Below, one piece after another: positions 31,457 through 57,572 of a DNA stretch of 64,000 nucleotides; within the stretch, counting starts at the first letter, position 1; the number at the start of each line of letters is the position of its first letter. The DNA lies in NCBI GenBank assembly GCA_004195035.1, contig SGBD01000005.1:39241-103240 (forward strand), read 5' to 3'. Position numbers and translations under genes: made by a program. The notes below the pieces were generated by a model. That model did no database searches and had not been told where the DNA came from. It saw nothing but the letters and a program-made list of their open reading frames with translations. Source of the stretch: Candidatus Acidulodesulfobacterium ferriphilum. Lineage in GTDB: Bacteria > SZUA-79 > Acidulodesulfobacterales > Acidulodesulfobacteraceae.

Positions 31457-31539
31457 CCCAAAATTGCCGATAAAAATTTCTAATCCAGTATTGATAATAC
31501 TTTGAAGCAGTTTTAAGAGTTTCTATCTGCAATTTTGGG
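31457..31539. mobile_element. Short (83-bp) MITE-like element just after pilB
   Basis: The ends are CCCAAAATTGCC (31457-31468) and its near-exact inverted complement, finishing GGCAATTTTGGG-like at 31539 with one mismatch (TGCAATTTTGGG). A perfect 5-bp duplication TTCAT flanks it (31452-31456 and 31540-31544). It lacks the internal palindromic core of the 166-bp relatives at 41467 and 57394, so it looks like an internal-deletion derivative. It sits 7 nt from the end of pilB. Confidence 0.75.
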
Positions 31540-51321: not shown

Positions 51322-51937
51322 TACAGACAACGCACGAACAGGTAAAACCGATAACAAGAATCTATCGGTTCATAATAATTGGTTTAAGGAAATTTCTAAC
51401 CGAAAAGCCCTCGAGATTGGTTTAGTTCAGGTTTATACAGGCAACGGCAAAGGAAAAACAACGGCCGCATTAGGGCAGGCTTTAAGGGCAAGCGGCCATA
51501 ACTTAAAATCGGTAATAATCCAGTTTCTGAAGGGCGGTTCGTATTCGGGAGAGTTTAAAGCAATAGAAAAATGCCTCCCCCTAATTAAGATTTATCAAGT
51601 CGGCAGGCCATTTTTTATCGATAAAAAAAATATTCCGAAAAAAGATATAGAACTTAACAGGGAAGGTCTAACCCTCGCCGAAAATATTGCCGCGGGCAAA
51701 AACGATATAAGCATTTTGATTTTAGATGAAATAAATGTCGCTTTAAATTTGGGAATAATAAAAACGGAGGAAGTTATAAACTTAATAAAAAATAAAAGGC
51801 CGGATATAGAATTAATACTGACTGGAAGAAATGCCCCCAAAGAAATAATAGATGCGGCTGATTTGGTTACCGAGATGAATGAAATCAAACACTATTATTC
51901 TAAAAATATTCCGTCGAGAACGGGAATAGAAAAATAA
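51305..51937 (+). CDS. cobO: Cob(I)yrinic acid a,c-diamide (corrinoid) adenosyltransferase, CobA/CobO/BtuR type
   Basis: A 210-aa P-loop enzyme that adenosylates cob(I)alamin or precursors. The P-loop is YTGNGKGKTTAALGQALRASG (about 45-65), IQFLKGG follows, and the LILDEINVALNLG and RPDIELILTGRNAP motifs are typical. About 38 extra residues lie N-terminal to the family start; the initiation codon may be later. No other cobalamin genes or a cobalamin riboswitch were seen nearby, so it may serve corrinoid salvage. A putative operator overlaps its stop codon. Confidence 0.9.
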   Translation: MNPNDNTDNARTGKTDNKNLSVHNNWFKEISNRKALEIGLVQVYTGNGKGKTTAALGQALRASGHNLKSVIIQFLKGGSYSGEFKAIEKCLPLIKIYQVGRPFFIDKKNIPKKDIELNREGLTLAENIAAGKNDISILILDEINVALNLGIIKTEEVINLIKNKRPDIELILTGRNAPKEIIDAADLVTEMNEIKHYYSKNIPSRTGIEK

Positions 51938-51956
51938 TAAAACGAGCGTTCATTTT
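51936..51956 (+). promoter_or_regulatory. TetR-type operator, copy 1 (upstream of promoter)
   Basis: AATAAAACGAGCGTTCATTTT contains the palindromic core AACG-AG-CGTT. An identical 21-bp copy lies 66 bp downstream on the other side of the promoter. The site ends 4 bp before the -35 box and overlaps the cobO stop codon. Confidence 0.75.
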
Positions 51957-51960
51957 TTTA

Positions 51961-51990
51961 TTGACAAATTATTTTTAAATAACTTATAAT
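51961..51990 (+). promoter_or_regulatory. Promoter of the tetR-sulfur relay operon
   Basis: TTGACA (51961-51966), an 18-bp AT-rich spacer and TATAAT (51985-51990) give a perfect -35 and -10. The predicted start is near 51997, just before operator copy 2 and about 37 nt ahead of the tetR ATG. Confidence 0.85.
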
Positions 51991-52001
51991 GTTTCAAATA
52001 A

Positions 52002-52022
52002 AATAAAACGAGCGTTCATTTT
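52002..52022 (+). promoter_or_regulatory. TetR-type operator, copy 2 (start-site region)
   Basis: A 21-bp exact repeat of the 51936 site, with core AACG-AG-CGTT. It covers roughly +5 to +25 of the predicted transcript. The 66-bp separation from copy 1 brackets the promoter and suits cooperative repression or looping. Confidence 0.75.
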
Positions 52023-52033
52023 AAAAAATAGAA

Positions 52034-52621
52034 ATGAGTTCAATAAAGGAAAATATAGCAAAAAAGAAGATATTTGAATTTTGCATAAGAGAATTTGCAA
52101 GGGCTGGTTATGCAAATGTAAGCATTAGAAATATATCGAAAGGCGTCGGCATAAGCATAGGAGCAATATATTACTATTTTTCTTCCAAAGAACAGATAGG
52201 ACAATTTTTATACGATAAGACTACAGAAATTATTCTAAATAAAATCAGGTTGGGTATCAAAAAAGCTCCGAATGACAAAGAAGCGTTAAGATCAATTATA
52301 TATAACTTGTTCGATATGTCGGAAAAAGAACCGCATCTAATGGAATTCATCCTTTATGTTAAGCACAAAGAATTTTTGCCTGACGCCCCGCCGATATGCT
52401 CTTCAAAACCTTTTGAATTTATAAAGAATTTTATCAAAGAAAAGATCGAAAGCGGAGTCTTCAGGGATATGGATATCGTCATTGCATCGGCTTTAATAAT
52501 GGGACCTGTCATCAGGATAATCCAGTTGAGGATGGATAACATTTTAAAGAATGACATAAGATTATACACCAAACCTTTATTAAACGGCATCGTTAAATCT
52601 ATATTTAAAAAACAGGCTTGA
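52034..52621 (+). CDS. TetR/AcrR-family regulator heading the sulfur-relay operon
   Basis: A 195-aa regulator with an N-terminal helix-turn-helix (GYANVSIRNISKGVGISIGAIYYYFSSKEQI, about 21-51) and a helical C-terminal half. That half contains MSEKEPHLMEFILYVKHKEFLPDAPPICSSKPFEFIKNFI, a pattern seen in regulators of this type. It is preceded by a strong promoter with two identical operators, so autoregulation is likely. The next gene begins 6 nt after its stop. The ligand is unknown; the Cys in PPICSS could allow response to reactive sulfur, but this is speculation. Confidence 0.9.
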   Translation: MSSIKENIAKKKIFEFCIREFARAGYANVSIRNISKGVGISIGAIYYYFSSKEQIGQFLYDKTTEIILNKIRLGIKKAPNDKEALRSIIYNLFDMSEKEPHLMEFILYVKHKEFLPDAPPICSSKPFEFIKNFIKEKIESGVFRDMDIVIASALIMGPVIRIIQLRMDNILKNDIRLYTKPLLNGIVKSIFKKQA

Positions 52622-52627
52622 CTTGAA

Positions 52628-53596
52628 ATGAAATTTCGCAAATATTTCTTAGTTTTCCCCTTGTTAATTATCTTTCTGATTAATATCGGATATATTCATA
52701 ACGCGAATGCGTTAAATTTTAAAGTCGGAAGGTCGCCTTACGGGCTTGCCGTGGGAAAGAAAGATAATATTTATGTTGCCATCGGCGGATTTTTAAATGT
52801 TATTAAACTTAACGAAAAAGGAAAGATAATTAAGAATATGAAAGCAGATTTTGCTCCATCCGGGGTTGTAATAAATAAAAACGGGCGCATTTATGTTACG
52901 ACGGGCATTGGATATGTAGTAAAGCTCGGCAGAACCGGAAAAATCATTAAGAAGGTTAAGGTTGGAATGATTCCTGCCGGAATCGCGATAGGTCCGGATG
53001 GGAATATTTATGTTGCATCAATCCACTCTAAGACCGTTACAAAATTAAACCCGTCGCTTAAGATATTAAAGGTCTTTTACGCGGGAATTGCCCCTTACGG
53101 TATAGCAATAAACGGGAACGGCGATATTTATGTTACGAATTTTTTAAATAAAGGAACCGTTACCGTTTTAAATAAAAGCGGAAAGATAGAAAAAATATTC
53201 AAAGCTCAAAGAAAGCCGGAGGGTATTGCTATAGGTCCCGCGGGTAATATTTATGTTACAAACGGGTTAAGCGACAGTGTATTGAAATTCGATAAAACAG
53301 GGAAAATTTTAAAGACATTTCATGTGAAAGGCGCACCGTACGGAATTGCGTTAAGCACTTCGGGAAATATGTTCATATCCTGCATATATTCCAATAATGT
53401 CGTCAAGTTGAGCCATGCGGGAAAGATTCTAAATACTTACGCAACAGGGATGAACCCTAACTTCATCGCAATAGACAATAAAGGCAATGTCTGGACGGCA
53501 AACTGGGGAGACGGTACGGTAACTAAAATTGCAGGCGCAACAAAGGGAATAGAGTTTTTCCCGTATAAAGGACCAATTTGGCAGGAAAGTTTTTAA
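52628..53596 (+). CDS. Exported NHL/YVTN-type beta-propeller protein
   Basis: A 322-aa protein with a signal peptide (about 1-28) and six or so repeats of about 41 residues with the pattern GIAIGPDGNIYVA... VTKLN. This is the NHL/virginiamycin-B-lyase-like beta-propeller fold. No catalytic His/Glu pair typical of Vgb lyases is evident, so I read it as a periplasmic or surface binding propeller. It follows tetR by 6 nt and lacks a strong ribosome-binding site, so translation may be coupled. Its presence at the head of a sulfur-relay operon is unusual. Confidence 0.8.
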   Translation: MKFRKYFLVFPLLIIFLINIGYIHNANALNFKVGRSPYGLAVGKKDNIYVAIGGFLNVIKLNEKGKIIKNMKADFAPSGVVINKNGRIYVTTGIGYVVKLGRTGKIIKKVKVGMIPAGIAIGPDGNIYVASIHSKTVTKLNPSLKILKVFYAGIAPYGIAINGNGDIYVTNFLNKGTVTVLNKSGKIEKIFKAQRKPEGIAIGPAGNIYVTNGLSDSVLKFDKTGKILKTFHVKGAPYGIALSTSGNMFISCIYSNNVVKLSHAGKILNTYATGMNPNFIAIDNKGNVWTANWGDGTVTKIAGATKGIEFFPYKGPIWQESF

Positions 53597-53630
53597 TTTT
53601 AATATATAAAATTATAAAAGGAGGCTTGAA

Positions 53631-53891
53631 ATGGCTGAAGAAAAAAATTTAGAAAATGTAAAACCGGATGAAACATTAGATGTGTTGGGCGAAACATGTC
53701 CTATTCCTGAAGCTATGGCTCATAAAAAGCTCAACAAAATGAAAGTGGGGCAGGTGCTGGAGGTTTACACCGACCATGCGGCGGCGGTTGAAAACTCGTT
53801 TCCATCCATGCTCAATAAATTAAACTATCCTTACTGCGTAACAAAAACAGGTCCGGGCGAGTTTACTATCAAAATTAAAAAAACATCTTAA
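53631..53891 (+). CDS. tusA: TusA-family sulfur carrier protein
   Basis: An 86-aa sulfur-transfer protein. The motif LDVLGETCPIPEAM holds the active Cys (about residue 23) in CPxP, followed by the KLNKMKVGQVLEVYTDHAAA fold. The C-terminal strand ends TIKIKK. The start has AAAGGAGG. TusA proteins carry persulfide between partners and are commonly adjacent to YeeE/YedE permeases and DsrE-type proteins, as here. The symbol denotes family, not proven tRNA thiolation. Confidence 0.92.
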   Translation: MAEEKNLENVKPDETLDVLGETCPIPEAMAHKKLNKMKVGQVLEVYTDHAAAVENSFPSMLNKLNYPYCVTKTGPGEFTIKIKKTS

Positions 53892-53952
53892 ATAATTCAG
53901 TTATAATTTAATAATTTAATAATTTTATTTTAAGTAAAGGGGGCATTATATT

Positions 53953-55131
53953 ATGAATCCTTATTTTCTCGAATATACTATAATAGGTATTGCAGGATTA
54001 ATTTTTGGCGCGGCGCTCGAAAGGGGAAGAATGTGTTTTGTGCTTGCCACAAACAACATGTTCATGGCAAAAGATACAAAAATATTGGAAGGTATTTTAT
54101 GGGCTTTTGGAATTTCTATTCTTGCTTTCGGCATTATAGAATCGCTTGGAATCGTTCCAATAAAAGCCGCGGTTGAAGGCGTATTTCCTTCGGGATGGTA
54201 TGATTTGGTCGGCGCGCTTTTATTCGGGTTTGGCATAGGACTTTGCGGCGCATGCATGAGCGGTTTGATATTCAGGGCGGGTTCAGGATTTACGCAAAAT
54301 TGGATGCAATTATTTGGAATACTGGTAGGAACGATATTCTTTGCATTCTTGATTTTTCCATTAACTAATTTTCTTTACTGGATTTTGCATACTATACCAT
54401 GGCTTACTATAAAACCCGGCCTTTCCGATTATATTCCTCATCAGTGGTTTGGAAATGCCGTATGGGGACCCTTTGTCGTAGCTTTAATTTTTGGCATTTT
54501 TTTCCTTGGTTTAGGGTTATATCTTACCAAAAGAAGATTTACGAAGATTGGCAAGGAGCGGGGCGAGAACTATAAAGAGCCTGTCATAACATGGGATATG
54601 TTAAAATTTAAAGAGGCTTTTTCCCCGAGATTGGGCGGATTATTGTTTGCCGTCGTTGCAATTATAGTTTTTTTAGTCTCATATTTTACCGTACATAAAG
54701 CGGCCTACATGGGCGTTACCACTCCTTACGGCAGTTTCGACACATACATTTTGGCTCCTTTCATAAATTTATATACCACGGTCGGACATTATAAAGCCTC
54801 ATTTTTACCGAAAATATCGTCAAATTGGTTTCAAATAGTCCCCGTAGCTATTCCGATGACCTTGCTTGTTATAACCACATTCGCCGGTTCTACGACCACA
54901 GCTATTTTAGGAGGAGAATTTAAATGGAGAGTGCCGAAAAGGAAAATAATGTTTCTTCAAAATTTTATTGGCGGCATTCTTACAGGCGTGGGCGCAAGAA
55001 TAGCGTTAGGGTGCAATATCGGAACTCTATGGTCAGGGTTTTTGATGTTTTCATGGGCAGGGGCGTTATTTTTACCGACGCTGGTTCTCGGAATGTATCT
55101 TGCCCTTAAGTTTCAACAGGCGATATGGTAA
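53953..55131 (+). CDS. yedE: YeeE/YedE-family sulfur-compound permease
   Basis: A 392-aa inner-membrane protein with about ten hydrophobic segments. Duplicated sulf-transporter motifs are present: ERGRMCFVLATNN (about 24-36), GLCGACMSG (about 96-104) and ARIALGCNIGTLWSG (about 349-363), with conserved Cys for relay of a sulfur atom or thiosulfate. The E. coli homologue YeeE imports thiosulfate and works with the TusA-like YeeD. It lies 61 nt after tusA with a strong AAGGGGG ribosome-binding site. The exact substrate (thiosulfate, polysulfide, other) is unknown. Confidence 0.9.
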   Translation: MNPYFLEYTIIGIAGLIFGAALERGRMCFVLATNNMFMAKDTKILEGILWAFGISILAFGIIESLGIVPIKAAVEGVFPSGWYDLVGALLFGFGIGLCGACMSGLIFRAGSGFTQNWMQLFGILVGTIFFAFLIFPLTNFLYWILHTIPWLTIKPGLSDYIPHQWFGNAVWGPFVVALIFGIFFLGLGLYLTKRRFTKIGKERGENYKEPVITWDMLKFKEAFSPRLGGLLFAVVAIIVFLVSYFTVHKAAYMGVTTPYGSFDTYILAPFINLYTTVGHYKASFLPKISSNWFQIVPVAIPMTLLVITTFAGSTTTAILGGEFKWRVPKRKIMFLQNFIGGILTGVGARIALGCNIGTLWSGFLMFSWAGALFLPTLVLGMYLALKFQQAIW

Positions 55132-55166
55132 TAAAACATTAAATATTAGTACTAAGGAGGATTTAA

Positions 55167-55460
55167 ATGGCTGCAGCTAACATGAAAAAAAGAAAAAATC
55201 ATAACTGGTGCGGAATAACATTTTTAGCTTTATATGGATTATTTACTATATACGCATCATTTTTCTTATCTTCTTTAAATAAAGGTAAGGTCATAGGAAA
55301 ATTATCCGATGAAGCCGTTACCGGAATAAAAGAGAGTTTTATCCTGTGGGGTATAATCATGATTATAGGCGCTATTCTTCTTTTAATAAGAGAATATGTC
55401 CTGAAATCCGGGCAGGAAGAGGTTAAGGATACGGAAAGCGGCGTGTCTCCACATTATTAA
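55167..55460 (+). CDS. Small two-helix membrane protein of the sulfur operon
   Basis: A 97-aa protein with two hydrophobic helices (about 16-37 and 54-77), a basic N-terminus and a Cys at residue 15 at the membrane edge (HNWCG). The tail is acidic. AAGGAGG precedes the ATG. No family was recognised. Its place 35 nt after the YedE gene suggests a YedE-associated subunit; this is inference. Confidence 0.8.
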   Translation: MAAANMKKRKNHNWCGITFLALYGLFTIYASFFLSSLNKGKVIGKLSDEAVTGIKESFILWGIIMIIGAILLLIREYVLKSGQEEVKDTESGVSPHY

Positions 55461-55503
55461 AATTCCCTTACAAATAATATATATAACATTCGAGGATTTT
55501 TAA

Positions 55504-55809
55504 ATGAAACTTGCAATTTTAATAACAACAGATAAATATAAGGGTCATGTCGAAAATATTATAGGCAGCGCTAAACATTTGGGTTATGAAATAAAATGCT
55601 TTATAATGGATGATGGAGTAAATTTATTAAACGATAAAAATTTTGTCGGTAAATTAAAAGAAGCCGGTTCGGATGTCTCGCTTTGCGAATATTCGTGCAG
55701 CATTAGAAGCATACATGAAAAGGTTGAAGGTTTCCTGTACGCTTCTCAATACGAAAACGCAAGCATAATAAACGCATTAACAAACGAAGACAGGCTTTTG
55801 GTTTTTTAA
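55504..55809 (+). CDS. DsrE-like protein (first copy)
   Basis: A 101-aa cytoplasmic alpha/beta protein: an LAILITTDKY first strand, a helix, then CFIMDDGVNLLND (the DGV region typical of DsrE/DsrF) and a SDVSLCEYSCSIR segment. Its Cys61 and Cys65 sit where DsrE-fold proteins carry the sulfur-accepting Cys. Cys32 is also present. The length fits the family. It is followed after 17 nt by a second related gene, so the two may form a hetero-oligomer as in DsrEFH. The assignment is by fold pattern, not by search. Confidence 0.75.
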   Translation: MKLAILITTDKYKGHVENIIGSAKHLGYEIKCFIMDDGVNLLNDKNFVGKLKEAGSDVSLCEYSCSIRSIHEKVEGFLYASQYENASIINALTNEDRLLVF

Positions 55810-55826
55810 TGTAGGAGGTAAAAAAA

Positions 55827-56099
55827 ATGACTAAAAAAATTGCGGTTTTTACCCGCGACAGACAGGCTGAAGCGCTTAGAATGTCGGGGGGGCTTACGCT
55901 TCTCGATGATAAGGTCGAAGTATATGTTCTTGATAAAAAGCTCGAGGATAATAAAGTTATAGCCAAGCATCTCGATATGGTTCAAAACATGCTTGAACTT
56001 CCCGTTTTTACAAATTGCAGGGACAACCCTTTCGAATATTTGACAAATGAAGAATTGGCAAATAAAATGCTTGAATTCGATGTGGTTATACCTTATTAA
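55827..56099 (+). CDS. DsrE-like protein (second copy)
   Basis: A 90-aa protein: KKIAVFTRDRQAEALRMSGGLTLLDDKVEVYVLDK is the N-terminal half pattern of DsrE-fold proteins found in sulfur-oxidation and sulfur-reduction clusters. A single Cys (Cys64, in FTNCRDNPF) could carry persulfide. AGGAGG precedes the start. It differs clearly from the preceding DsrE-like protein, so the pair are not recent duplicates. Confidence 0.75.
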   Translation: MTKKIAVFTRDRQAEALRMSGGLTLLDDKVEVYVLDKKLEDNKVIAKHLDMVQNMLELPVFTNCRDNPFEYLTNEELANKMLEFDVVIPY

Positions 56100-56145
56100 A
56101 TTATTCTAAACAATAAATGAATGTAAATGGCAGGGAGAGCTAAAT

Positions 56146-56316
56146 ATGAAAATACTTCATGTATTAAAAAGAGAGCCGTCAAAAACGGAAACCGAAATTA
56201 TCGATATCCATTCCAAGTCTTATGATACAAGCGTTATTAGGCTTTACGAAGACGGCATCGACTATAACGGCTTCTTAAAGGATGTATTTAAATATGACAA
56301 GGTATTTTGTTGGTAG
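56146..56316 (+). CDS. DsrH/TusB-like mini protein
   Basis: A 56-aa protein read directly from the sequence (ATG 56146, TAG 56314-56316) with GGGAG upstream. It starts MKILHVLKREPSKTETEIID, continues VIRLYEDGIDYNGFL and ends DKVFCW. The first strand, the LYEDGIDY element and the terminal Cys55-Trp56 recall short DsrH-like partners in sulfur-relay clusters. It lies 46 nt after the second DsrE-like gene, completing a DsrE-DsrE-DsrH-like trio. Its size makes it easy to miss. Confidence 0.7.
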   Translation: MKILHVLKREPSKTETEIIDIHSKSYDTSVIRLYEDGIDYNGFLKDVFKYDKVFCW

Positions 56317-56400
56317 TTTAAAAGATTATCATTATAATATATAGTTAATATATATATTATAATAAATTTAATGCAATACTACTAAAAAGGAGTTAAGATT

Positions 56401-56919
56401 ATGAAAAAGATTATTATCTTAAGCGTGATTTTCTTACTTTCGTCAGCGGCCGTTTCTTATGCCGGAAATTTTAATCAAGTGTTGGCGCAAAAGGCTTATG
56501 AAGCGCTGAACCCTCATAATGTCGGTCCAAAACCGAACGCCGTCGGAGTGGTGGGCGTCCCCCAAATTATGGCGCCGGTGCTTTACAAAGAGTATGTCGT
56601 AGAACACAACCCGAAACACTATTTTCTTTTAGATGTAAGAGAGCATGCCGCATTTGTGAAAATGGGTCATATTGCCGGCGCCCATAATATTCCCCTGCAG
56701 GTGCTTTTTACTCCAAAGTATTTAGAGATGCTTCCAAAACACCATACAATTATCAGCATCTGCTATGTCGGGCAGTGGGAATCGATGGCTGCATCGCTGT
56801 TAAAGGTAATGGGCTATAATGTTAAAATATTAAGATTCGGCATGTCTTCATGGAATCCCAAAATAGACTTGCTTCACCGGAATAAAGTAGTATTTGGAGA
56901 CTTTCCCCTTGTTCATTAA
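56401..56919 (+). CDS. Exported rhodanese-domain protein
   Basis: A 172-aa protein with a signal peptide (about 1-21) and a single rhodanese domain: FLLDVREHAAFVKMGHIAGAHNIP (about 76-98) and the active loop starting at Cys121 (CYVGQW). The usual loop is CxxGxR; here the sixth position is Trp and the fifth Gln. The Cys is retained, so a persulfide can form, but the anion-binding Arg is absent. It should act in the periplasm as a sulfane-sulfur carrier or transferase feeding YedE/TusA. AAGGAG precedes the start. Confidence 0.88.
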   Translation: MKKIIILSVIFLLSSAAVSYAGNFNQVLAQKAYEALNPHNVGPKPNAVGVVGVPQIMAPVLYKEYVVEHNPKHYFLLDVREHAAFVKMGHIAGAHNIPLQVLFTPKYLEMLPKHHTIISICYVGQWESMAASLLKVMGYNVKILRFGMSSWNPKIDLLHRNKVVFGDFPLVH

Positions 56920-57040
56920 TTTAGAAAGGGACATATACAATCTTATGTGTTTATGTTATACTGTTAAAAATTGGTTAATATAAGTACGATTATTATTAAA
57001 ATTAATTCTAAATCAATTAAAAAAGGAGATGATCAATACG

Positions 57041-57259
57041 ATGAAAAAATTCATTATCAGTACTGTTTTTACCGCCGCCGCAGCTTTTATATTCATGGTC
57101 AGTTTTAGCATGGTTTCGGGCATAAATAACAGTTATGCTTTGCAAGGCAGTCATTTGACGGGCAGCGGTAAGATAACGGCTAAAAAAAATTCAAAGACTA
57201 AAAATGACGAAAATAAGTCAAAAAAGAAATTAAATAAAATGGGCGCCGGTTGCTTATAA
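57041..57259 (+). CDS. Small exported Lys-rich protein with C-terminal cysteine
   Basis: A 72-aa protein with a signal peptide (about 1-34, ending NSYAL or so), a Lys/Asn/Ser-rich low-complexity middle and the C-terminal end MGAGCL, which has the only mature Cys. I chose the ATG at 57041 because AAGGAGAT lies 12 nt upstream; the ATG at 57029 is too close. No family was recognised. As last gene of the sulfur operon, its lone Cys might bind sulfur, metal or be lipid-modified after cleavage, but nothing proves this. Confidence 0.65.
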   Translation: MKKFIISTVFTAAAAFIFMVSFSMVSGINNSYALQGSHLTGSGKITAKKNSKTKNDENKSKKKLNKMGAGCL

Positions 57260-57308
57260 TCATTTATAATCTTTATTTAAACCTGCCCCACGGCTCTAAT
57301 TAAAGTTG

Positions 57309-57350
57309 AAAAGCTCCGATAAAATTATTTATCGGAGCTTTTTGTTTTTT
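57309..57350 (+). terminator. Intrinsic terminator of the sulfur operon
   Basis: A 15-bp stem (57309-57323 with 57328-57342, loop ATTA) containing GCTCCGATAAA is followed by TTTTTGTTTTTT. It lies 49 nt after the last small gene. The rest of the 422-nt gap to 57681 holds a MITE-like element and the dehydrogenase promoter. Confidence 0.92.
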
Positions 57351-57393
57351 AAAGAACTTACTCATTATAACTAACGGCTTAATATAAATTATA

Positions 57394-57559
57394 CCAAAAA
57401 TTGCCGATAGAGATTGTTAAACATATTGCAATGCATTAAGAACACTGGATTCCCGCTTTCGCAGGAATGACACCCAACGGGTGAACTTTTAAAATCCCTC
57501 AAAGTCATTCCCGCGAAAGCGGGAATCCAGAAAAATAAATTTCTATCGGCAATTTTGAG
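57394..57559. mobile_element. MITE-like element (166 bp) before the dehydrogenase gene
   Basis: Ends are CCAAAAATTGCC (57394-57405) and the inverted match GGCAATTTTGAG (57548-57559), with 14 bp of outer repeat matching around ATTGCCGATAG. The 5-bp duplication TTATA flanks it (57389-57393 and 57560-57564). The core is a 27-bp inverted repeat with one mismatch (57445-57471 and 57504-57530), CTGGATTCCCGCTTTCGC-type, plus a small ACCCAACGGGT stem. Same length and plan as the 41467 element, with its inner loop in the opposite orientation. Confidence 0.85.
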
Positions 57560-57572
57560 TTATAATTATTTA

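Follow-up and report, generated by a model that had tools for sequence, protein, structure and literature searches.

The YTD gene cluster, first reported by Umezawa (2020) as that work is described in later papers (PMC12998232, PMC9751629, PMC8780430), consists of yedE, tusA and dsrE together with two genes for small conserved proteins; the products of dsrE and of the two small genes (DsrE/Chp1/Chp2) are also known as DsrEFH type II (PMC12998232, PMC9751629, PMC13293266). DsrEFH type II usually (73.9% of genomes) goes with a dsrAB of the reductive type. For cable bacteria, persulfide transfer in vitro from TusA to Cys67 of DsrE and then to DsrC was reported in 2026 (PMC13293266). In Hyphomicrobium, a channel of the YeeE family (SoxT/YeeE) was proposed to pass sulfane sulfur derived from Sox to cytoplasmic carriers under the control of dedicated repressors (PMC11582611). 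Here we describe a ten-gene operon related to these systems in a stretch of 64,000 nucleotides (nt) of Candidatus (Ca.) Acidulodesulfobacterium ferriphilum (assembly GCA_004195035.1, contig SGBD01000005.1, positions 39,241 to 103,240), hereafter the window. The initial annotation, made from the letters alone, regarded the combination of genes as unfamiliar; judged by gene content and synteny, however, its core is the published YTD cluster, with yedE-related, tusA and dsrE-related genes and two small genes lying adjacent on one strand. Added to this core are an exported rhodanese and four further elements that are contributions of this order, namely tetR with its operators, an exported beta-propeller, a two-helix membrane protein and a small exported protein with a C-terminal Cys. 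The host also differs from the YTD precedent in having sox genes and a type I DsrEFH. The locus thus represents a new and conserved variant of the YTD (DsrEFH type II) cluster, and none of the papers searched mentioned YTD for Ca. Acidulodesulfobacterales. We propose, with a probability of roughly 0.6, that this operon imports periplasmic, largely Sox-derived sulfane sulfur and delivers it through YedE, TusA and DsrEFH type II to DsrC. The features of the locus, with protein lengths in amino acids (aa), are the following.

51939 to 51956, plus strand: first copy of the predicted operator (AAAACGAGCGTTCATTTT), preceding the -35 element; an exact pair with copy 2 in the window
51961 to 51990, plus strand: sigma-70 promoter, TTGACA-18-TATAAT, 12/12 match to the consensus
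52005 to 52022, plus strand: second copy of the predicted operator, immediately after the -10 element, identical to copy 1 (AAAACGAGCGTTCATTTT)
52034 to 52621, plus strand: TetR-family regulator, 195 aa (PF00440, 45 bits against a cut-off of 24)
52628 to 53596, plus strand: exported NHL/Vgb-like beta-propeller, 322 aa, with one invariant Cys (252); Pfam Vgb_lyase/NHL above cut-off
53631 to 53891, plus strand: TusA, 86 aa, motif CPIP, Cys23 (PF01206, 63.9 bits)
53953 to 55131, plus strand: YedE/YeeE-type permease, 392 aa (PF04143, 165 bits)
55167 to 55460, plus strand: two-helix membrane protein, 97 aa, with an invariant NHNWCGI motif, kept in 12/12 clusters
55504 to 55809, plus strand: DsrE type II, 101 aa, active-site Cys61 (PF02635 above cut-off)
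55827 to 56099, plus strand: DsrF type II (published as 'Chp'), 90 aa, assigned from a predicted model with a predicted local distance difference test score (pLDDT) of 93.8; no Pfam match
56146 to 56316, plus strand: DsrH type II (published as 'Chp'), 56 aa, assigned from gene order; model pLDDT 94.7
56401 to 56919, plus strand: exported single-domain rhodanese, 172 aa, with a single invariant Cys, Cys121 (PF00581, 49.7 bits)
57041 to 57259, plus strand: small exported protein with a C-terminal Cys, 72 aa, tail conserved in 9/9 relatives
57307 to 57344, plus strand: intrinsic terminator, stem of 15-17 base pairs (bp; perfect arms of 15 nt) followed by a T run

All ten open reading frames (ORFs) were verified at 52034-57259 on the plus strand, in the places and the order first annotated. 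Their spacing was less uniform than the short gaps initially described: the first seven intergenic gaps measure 6, 34, 61, 35, 43, 17 and 46 nt, but 84 and 121 nt precede the last two genes, encoding the rhodanese and the small exported protein. Pfam matches above cut-off were obtained for TetR_N, the NHL/Vgb-type propeller, TusA, Sulf_transp (YedE), DsrE and Rhodanese. The proteins of 97, 90, 56 and 72 aa matched no curated family, and we consider their ORFs real genes because relatives retain every one of them at the corresponding place in the order. The order tetR–propeller–tusA–yedE–two-helix gene–dsrE–dsrF–dsrH–rhodanese–small exported protein is shared by 12 of 30 family genomes, in some of them interrupted at contig ends, with 58-97% identity among the core proteins. 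Since it recurs in 12 family members, this gene order is more than a chance arrangement; the ten genes are one unit. Departures from the order were few; the propeller gene is absent on one contig of genome G018 and lies ahead of tetR in G007, an additional rhodanese occurs in G024, and G009 and G011 have an additional tusA. Comparison with named genomes assigns the family to Ca. Acidulodesulfobacterales: Ca. Acididesulfobacter diazotrophicus AP1 has the same cluster and isolate SZUA-79 belongs to the same family; the loci of both are records already counted among the family loci and add no further support. Homologous YTD loci were also identified (L080, L086, L096, L130 and L145 in our numbering, the last of them a family locus described below), and a search with the three dsrE-, dsrF- and dsrH-like genes retrieved YTD clusters in Nitrospirota and proteobacteria. 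Plasmid records yielded distant YedE paralogues only.

The trio of small proteins relates this locus to the cable-bacterial DsrEFH type II, with which it shares three small genes of the DsrE superfamily beside tusA/yedE, the Cys of DsrE and a host carrying dsrAB; it differs in its smaller size, 247 aa in sum against a trimer of 33 kDa, and in its host, as cable bacteria are without Sox and DsrL (PMC13293266, PMC13047784). The three genes are syntenic beside tusA/yedE in 12/12 clusters. Cys61 of DsrE was invariant in 15/15 sequences, including those of other phyla, and aligned with the active Cys of type I; the best solved match of the DsrE profile was 2hy5_A, the DsrE of A. vinosum. For the 90-aa protein, VIA-align comparison of the predicted model returned 3mc3 (Z 11.4, root-mean-square deviation (rmsd) 2.1 over 89), YchN, TusC and 2hy5_B, the A. 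vinosum DsrF (Z 9.1, rmsd 2.1 over 85), all at Z 9.1-11.4 and with structures of the DsrE/DsrF family ranking best; as modelled, then, this protein has the DsrE/F fold, although its sequence goes unrecognised. The 56-aa protein was modelled with confidence as beta-alpha-beta-alpha-beta, and its match to 2hy5_C was weak (Z 4.2, rmsd 2.4 over 53), standing among many Rossmann-like matches; its designation as DsrH is due to gene order. Neither DsrF nor DsrH had a significant Foldseek match, and profile comparison linked neither of them to the genome's own type I subunits. DsrH-family proteins of 55-66 aa adjoin dsrF in Nitrospirota, proteobacteria and others, as they do in a second YTD type of this family, and a DsrH of 56 aa is therefore of normal size and not the miniature form it was first thought to be.

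The presence of TusA beside DsrE-family proteins might also suggest a TusBCD-like branch devoted to the 2-thiolation of tRNA. However, none of the three proteins reached the cut-offs of the TusB, TusC and TusD models (DsrH, DsrF and DsrE of type I), whereas the separate trio encoded by this genome's dsr operon did, and exported partners would make no sense in such a pathway; we rejected this explanation, which we find scarcely credible. From these matches, the genome carries both DsrEFH types, I and II.

A second function to be considered for the YedE-TusA pair was the uptake of thiosulfate (or selenium) for assimilation, in the manner of E. coli TsuAB/YeeED. In support of this idea, tusA is adjacent and YedE combines the Sulf_transp domain with the three channel cysteines that define the YeeE/YedE family, C28, C101 and C354 being aligned with cysteines of S. 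thermophila YeeE (6leo alignment). Its scores, on the other hand, fell far below the equivalog cut-off of TsuA (90 vs 400 bits) and that of YedE/FdhT (104 vs 350 bits), and neither the trio nor the exported rhodanese nor the sox neighbourhood has a place in a TsuAB-type system. On these grounds uptake for assimilation was also rejected, as an improbable role for the cluster.

The genome from which the window comes (1.87 Mb, 97% complete) encodes DsrA (486 bits) and DsrB (504 bits), as well as DsrC, DsrMK and Sat, in the order dsrA-dsrB-(76 aa)-dsrL-dsrC-dsrM-dsrK-dsrEFH-sat-aprBA, where dsrM, dsrL and aprBA were assigned by eye. The dsrEFH of this operon (L063, G000:C1:294001-314000) is of the canonical type I, and the product of the 76-aa ORF that separates dsrB from the dsrL-like gene, in the position of DsrD, had no Pfam or NCBIfam match. 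The DsrL has the YNK motif, which is given for this order only (PMC7596348), and the dsr locus agrees with that published for Ca. Acidulodesulfobacterales. SoxY, SoxZ and SoxB (645 bits) are encoded as well. The initial annotation, reporting no dsr or sox genes in the window, had proposed a self-contained sulfur import and relay module working without a Dsr or Sox partner. This proposal is contradicted at the level of the genome, which contains dsrAB, dsrC, dsrMK, sat, type I DsrEFH, soxYZ and soxB, and at that of the family, where dsrA was present in 8/8 and sox genes in 7/8 of the cluster-carrying genomes tested; we consider it very improbable. In addition, among 19 family genomes, dsr and sox were both present in 9/11 of those with any YTD vs 1/8 of those without (Fisher p = 0.005), and, for the tetR-type cluster alone, in 7/8 vs 3/11 (p = 0.02); these values come from family searches and the stretches around matches and are not corrected for kinship. 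The sox genes are also close neighbours of some clusters: in G014 and G018, the genes directly preceding tetR on its strand encode SoxB, exported DsrE-like proteins and a cytochrome c, and in G024 soxB ends about 5 kb upstream of tetR.

Two other loci of the window's genome were recorded in this search. In L068 (G000:C4:170001-181000), a gene for an oxidoreductase resembling sulfide:quinone oxidoreductase (SQR) lies with two tusA-like genes and one dsrE-like gene, and CPxP is replaced by CCMP in one of the two TusA-like proteins. In L156 (75-569, on G000:C6), a soxB-like ORF of 164 aa lies near a contig end beside a TetR gene; the full soxB is on C4, and the short copy is possibly broken or wrongly assembled.

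With respect to its regulation, the operon is enclosed, as first described, by a strong promoter, the 12/12 site at 51961-51990, and a strong terminator, the stem and T run at 57307-57344; promoter-like sites overall were not above chance (37 vs 29.0 +/- 6.2 expected). Two identical sites of 18 bp flank the promoter, and a relaxed form of this pattern had exactly 2 matches in the 1.87 Mb genome, both at this cluster; in relatives, it matched almost only at this cluster, and a closely similar site stands just after the -10 element in 11/11 clusters with a readable upstream region. The predicted operator pair is thus specific to the cluster. The TetR protein belongs to a subfamily, new here, whose members head sox operons as well as this cluster and share an invariant Cys: Cys122, in the motif [IV]CS, is invariant in the cluster type and in the paralogues at sox operons. 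These paralogues were found at four loci (L169, L170, L172 and L171); in G009, G011 and G018 they adjoin a DsrE2-like gene (136 aa) followed by soxY or soxY/soxZ, and in the window's own genome the paralogue adjoins soxB. Judging from these arrangements, TetR-type control of Sox is likely in this order. Cys17, by contrast, is invariant in the cluster type only and missing in the sox-linked paralogues, leaving Cys122 as the only general cysteine, and a two-cysteine switch was rejected. Cys122 may sense sulfur; its conservation is weak evidence for this, because 65 of the 195 columns of the cluster-type TetR, that is, one third, are invariant. In Hyphomicrobium, the regulators are of the ArsR type and the pathway is sHdr-LbpA, where here we find TetR and Dsr (PMC11582611).

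On the periplasmic side, the propeller, the rhodanese and the small protein are predicted to be exported from their N-terminal hydrophobic segments. For the small protein, the start at 57041 (72 aa) was preferred over that at 57029. It is built of a signal-like segment, a Lys/Ser-rich stretch of varying length and the C-terminus LxKMGAGCL; its body is divergent, and LxKMGAGCL is invariant in 9/9 clusters. In several relatives the next gene encodes an LTXXQ-type exported protein that ends in LNAGCL[A/G]K. The likeness to SoxY lies in export and in a C-terminal Gly-Cys tail, VTVGGC in SoxY and GAGCL in the small protein; in contrast to SoxY, the small protein has just a Lys-rich stretch ahead of its tail, and the SoxY domain PF13501 had no match in it, so that the tail alone is alike. 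In DNA of this order totalling 470 kb, 258 ORFs have an N-terminal hydrophobic segment; of these, only members of the tail-protein, LTXXQ-neighbour and SoxY families carry GC among their final five residues. This count is suggestive only, because the loci making up the 470 kb were sampled around sulfur genes.

Similar endings were seen elsewhere. In this order, no residue follows the Cys of the VTVGGC ending of SoxY (L149:8637-9161; L150:5744-6265; L169, L170 and L172). At the YTD loci L086 and L127, small exported proteins ending in QGC or EGC come after yedE, and at L093 two proteins ending in PTGC come before dsrE. Upstream of the cluster in G024, L047:9286-9687 encodes an exported protein in which GCLAPYHMQK comes after a long poly-glycine stretch; the gene adjoins those of exported rhodaneses and is near soxB.

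Taken together, these data are consistent with a TetR-headed unit that relays sulfur from the periplasm through YedE and TusA to the DsrE-like trio, and in this respect the initial annotation was right. In the mechanism that we propose, the periplasmic sulfane sulfur would mostly be released from thiosulfate by SoxB and SoxYZ, and some might come as polysulfide from SQR. It would be taken up by the exported rhodanese and the small exported protein and presented by them to the membrane, the GAGCL tail, with Cys71, acting as a SoxY-like swinging arm, and the propeller and the two-helix protein may dock or hold these two proteins. YedE would conduct the sulfur through its three-cysteine channel to Cys23 of TusA, which would accept it as a persulfide and load Cys61 of DsrE in the trio; the trio would in turn load DsrC, as was demonstrated for the cable-bacterial homologues. 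DsrAB, AprBA and Sat might then oxidise the sulfur, or disproportionation might use the same entry. TetR would occupy the two operators around the promoter until released by modification of Cys122 by sulfane sulfur.

Several observations weigh against this proposal. In published tests, thiosulfate did not directly load TusA or DsrEFH type II. G007, a genome rated 100% complete, has the cluster, and neither soxY nor soxB was detected in it. DsrEFH type I is located inside the dsr operon, so that the type II trio might have a different acceptor or work in a different direction. The rhodanese and the tail protein may be under a promoter of their own, as a 10/12 promoter-like site at 56310-56338 could begin a second transcript. 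Finally, the tail could serve otherwise, for example in metal binding or as a disulfide anchor, and the tail count was drawn from loci centred on sulfur genes.

The main rival to sulfur import for respiratory oxidation is that the cluster serves the disproportionation of elemental sulfur or thiosulfate to sulfide and sulfate, as was first proposed for YTD, because the same proteins become more abundant in Desulfolithobacter during thiosulfate disproportionation. YTD was also named one of the best disproportionation candidates for Desulfobacterota and Nitrospirota, and the host studied here has dsr and sat genes. Nevertheless, DsrEFH type II occurs in only 25/63 cultured disproportionators and also in many sulfate reducers that do not disproportionate, and YTD alone is unusable as a marker of this metabolism; moreover, Ca. 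Acidulodesulfobacterales, an uncultured order described from acid mine drainage as facultatively anaerobic, carry sox genes. We therefore regard disproportionation as an unlikely purpose of the cluster in this order.

The second YTD type, present in 3/11 YTD-bearing family genomes, consists of yedE, two TusA-like genes, dsrE, dsrF and dsrH (63-66 aa), then genes for a two-domain rhodanese and an LTXXQ-like protein, both exported; the tetR type of the window is absent from it. It was traced along its whole length in G005 (L145), over most of it in G003 (L154) and in part in G001 (L153), where the listed ORFs include a yedE split in two, a TusA-like gene and a two-domain rhodanese. Beside the operon, at window positions 57384-57569, and again at 31459-31537, lies an element resembling a miniature inverted-repeat transposable element, with a terminal inverted repeat around CAAAATTGCCGATAGAAAT and an inner inverted repeat, CTGGATTCCCGCTTTCGC. 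Its 17-bp core has 33 copies in the window's genome and 45-50 in G009 and G011, and was not found in the genomes tested outside the family.

In the literature of 2022-2026, how sulfane sulfur is presented to YeeE/SoxT channels, and whether YTD is for oxidation or disproportionation, are left open. The cluster described here ties YTD to Sox by position and by regulator family, in hosts that have dsrAB and both DsrEFH types, and points to a candidate sensor and a small candidate carrier, either of which could be probed through one cysteine. As a more tentative suggestion, possible in our view if somewhat doubtful, proteins that are exported and carry a bare (G/N)AGCL tail at the C-terminus, comprising the 72-aa protein and its LTXXQ-type neighbour in relatives, might be new SoxY-like carriers of sulfane sulfur to a YeeE-family channel, and at the same time the [IV]CS TetR might be a sulfane-sulfur sensor switching both the cluster and the sox operons. 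If this is true, these carriers and this sensor would supply the missing step between the periplasmic Sox and the cytoplasmic Dsr systems.

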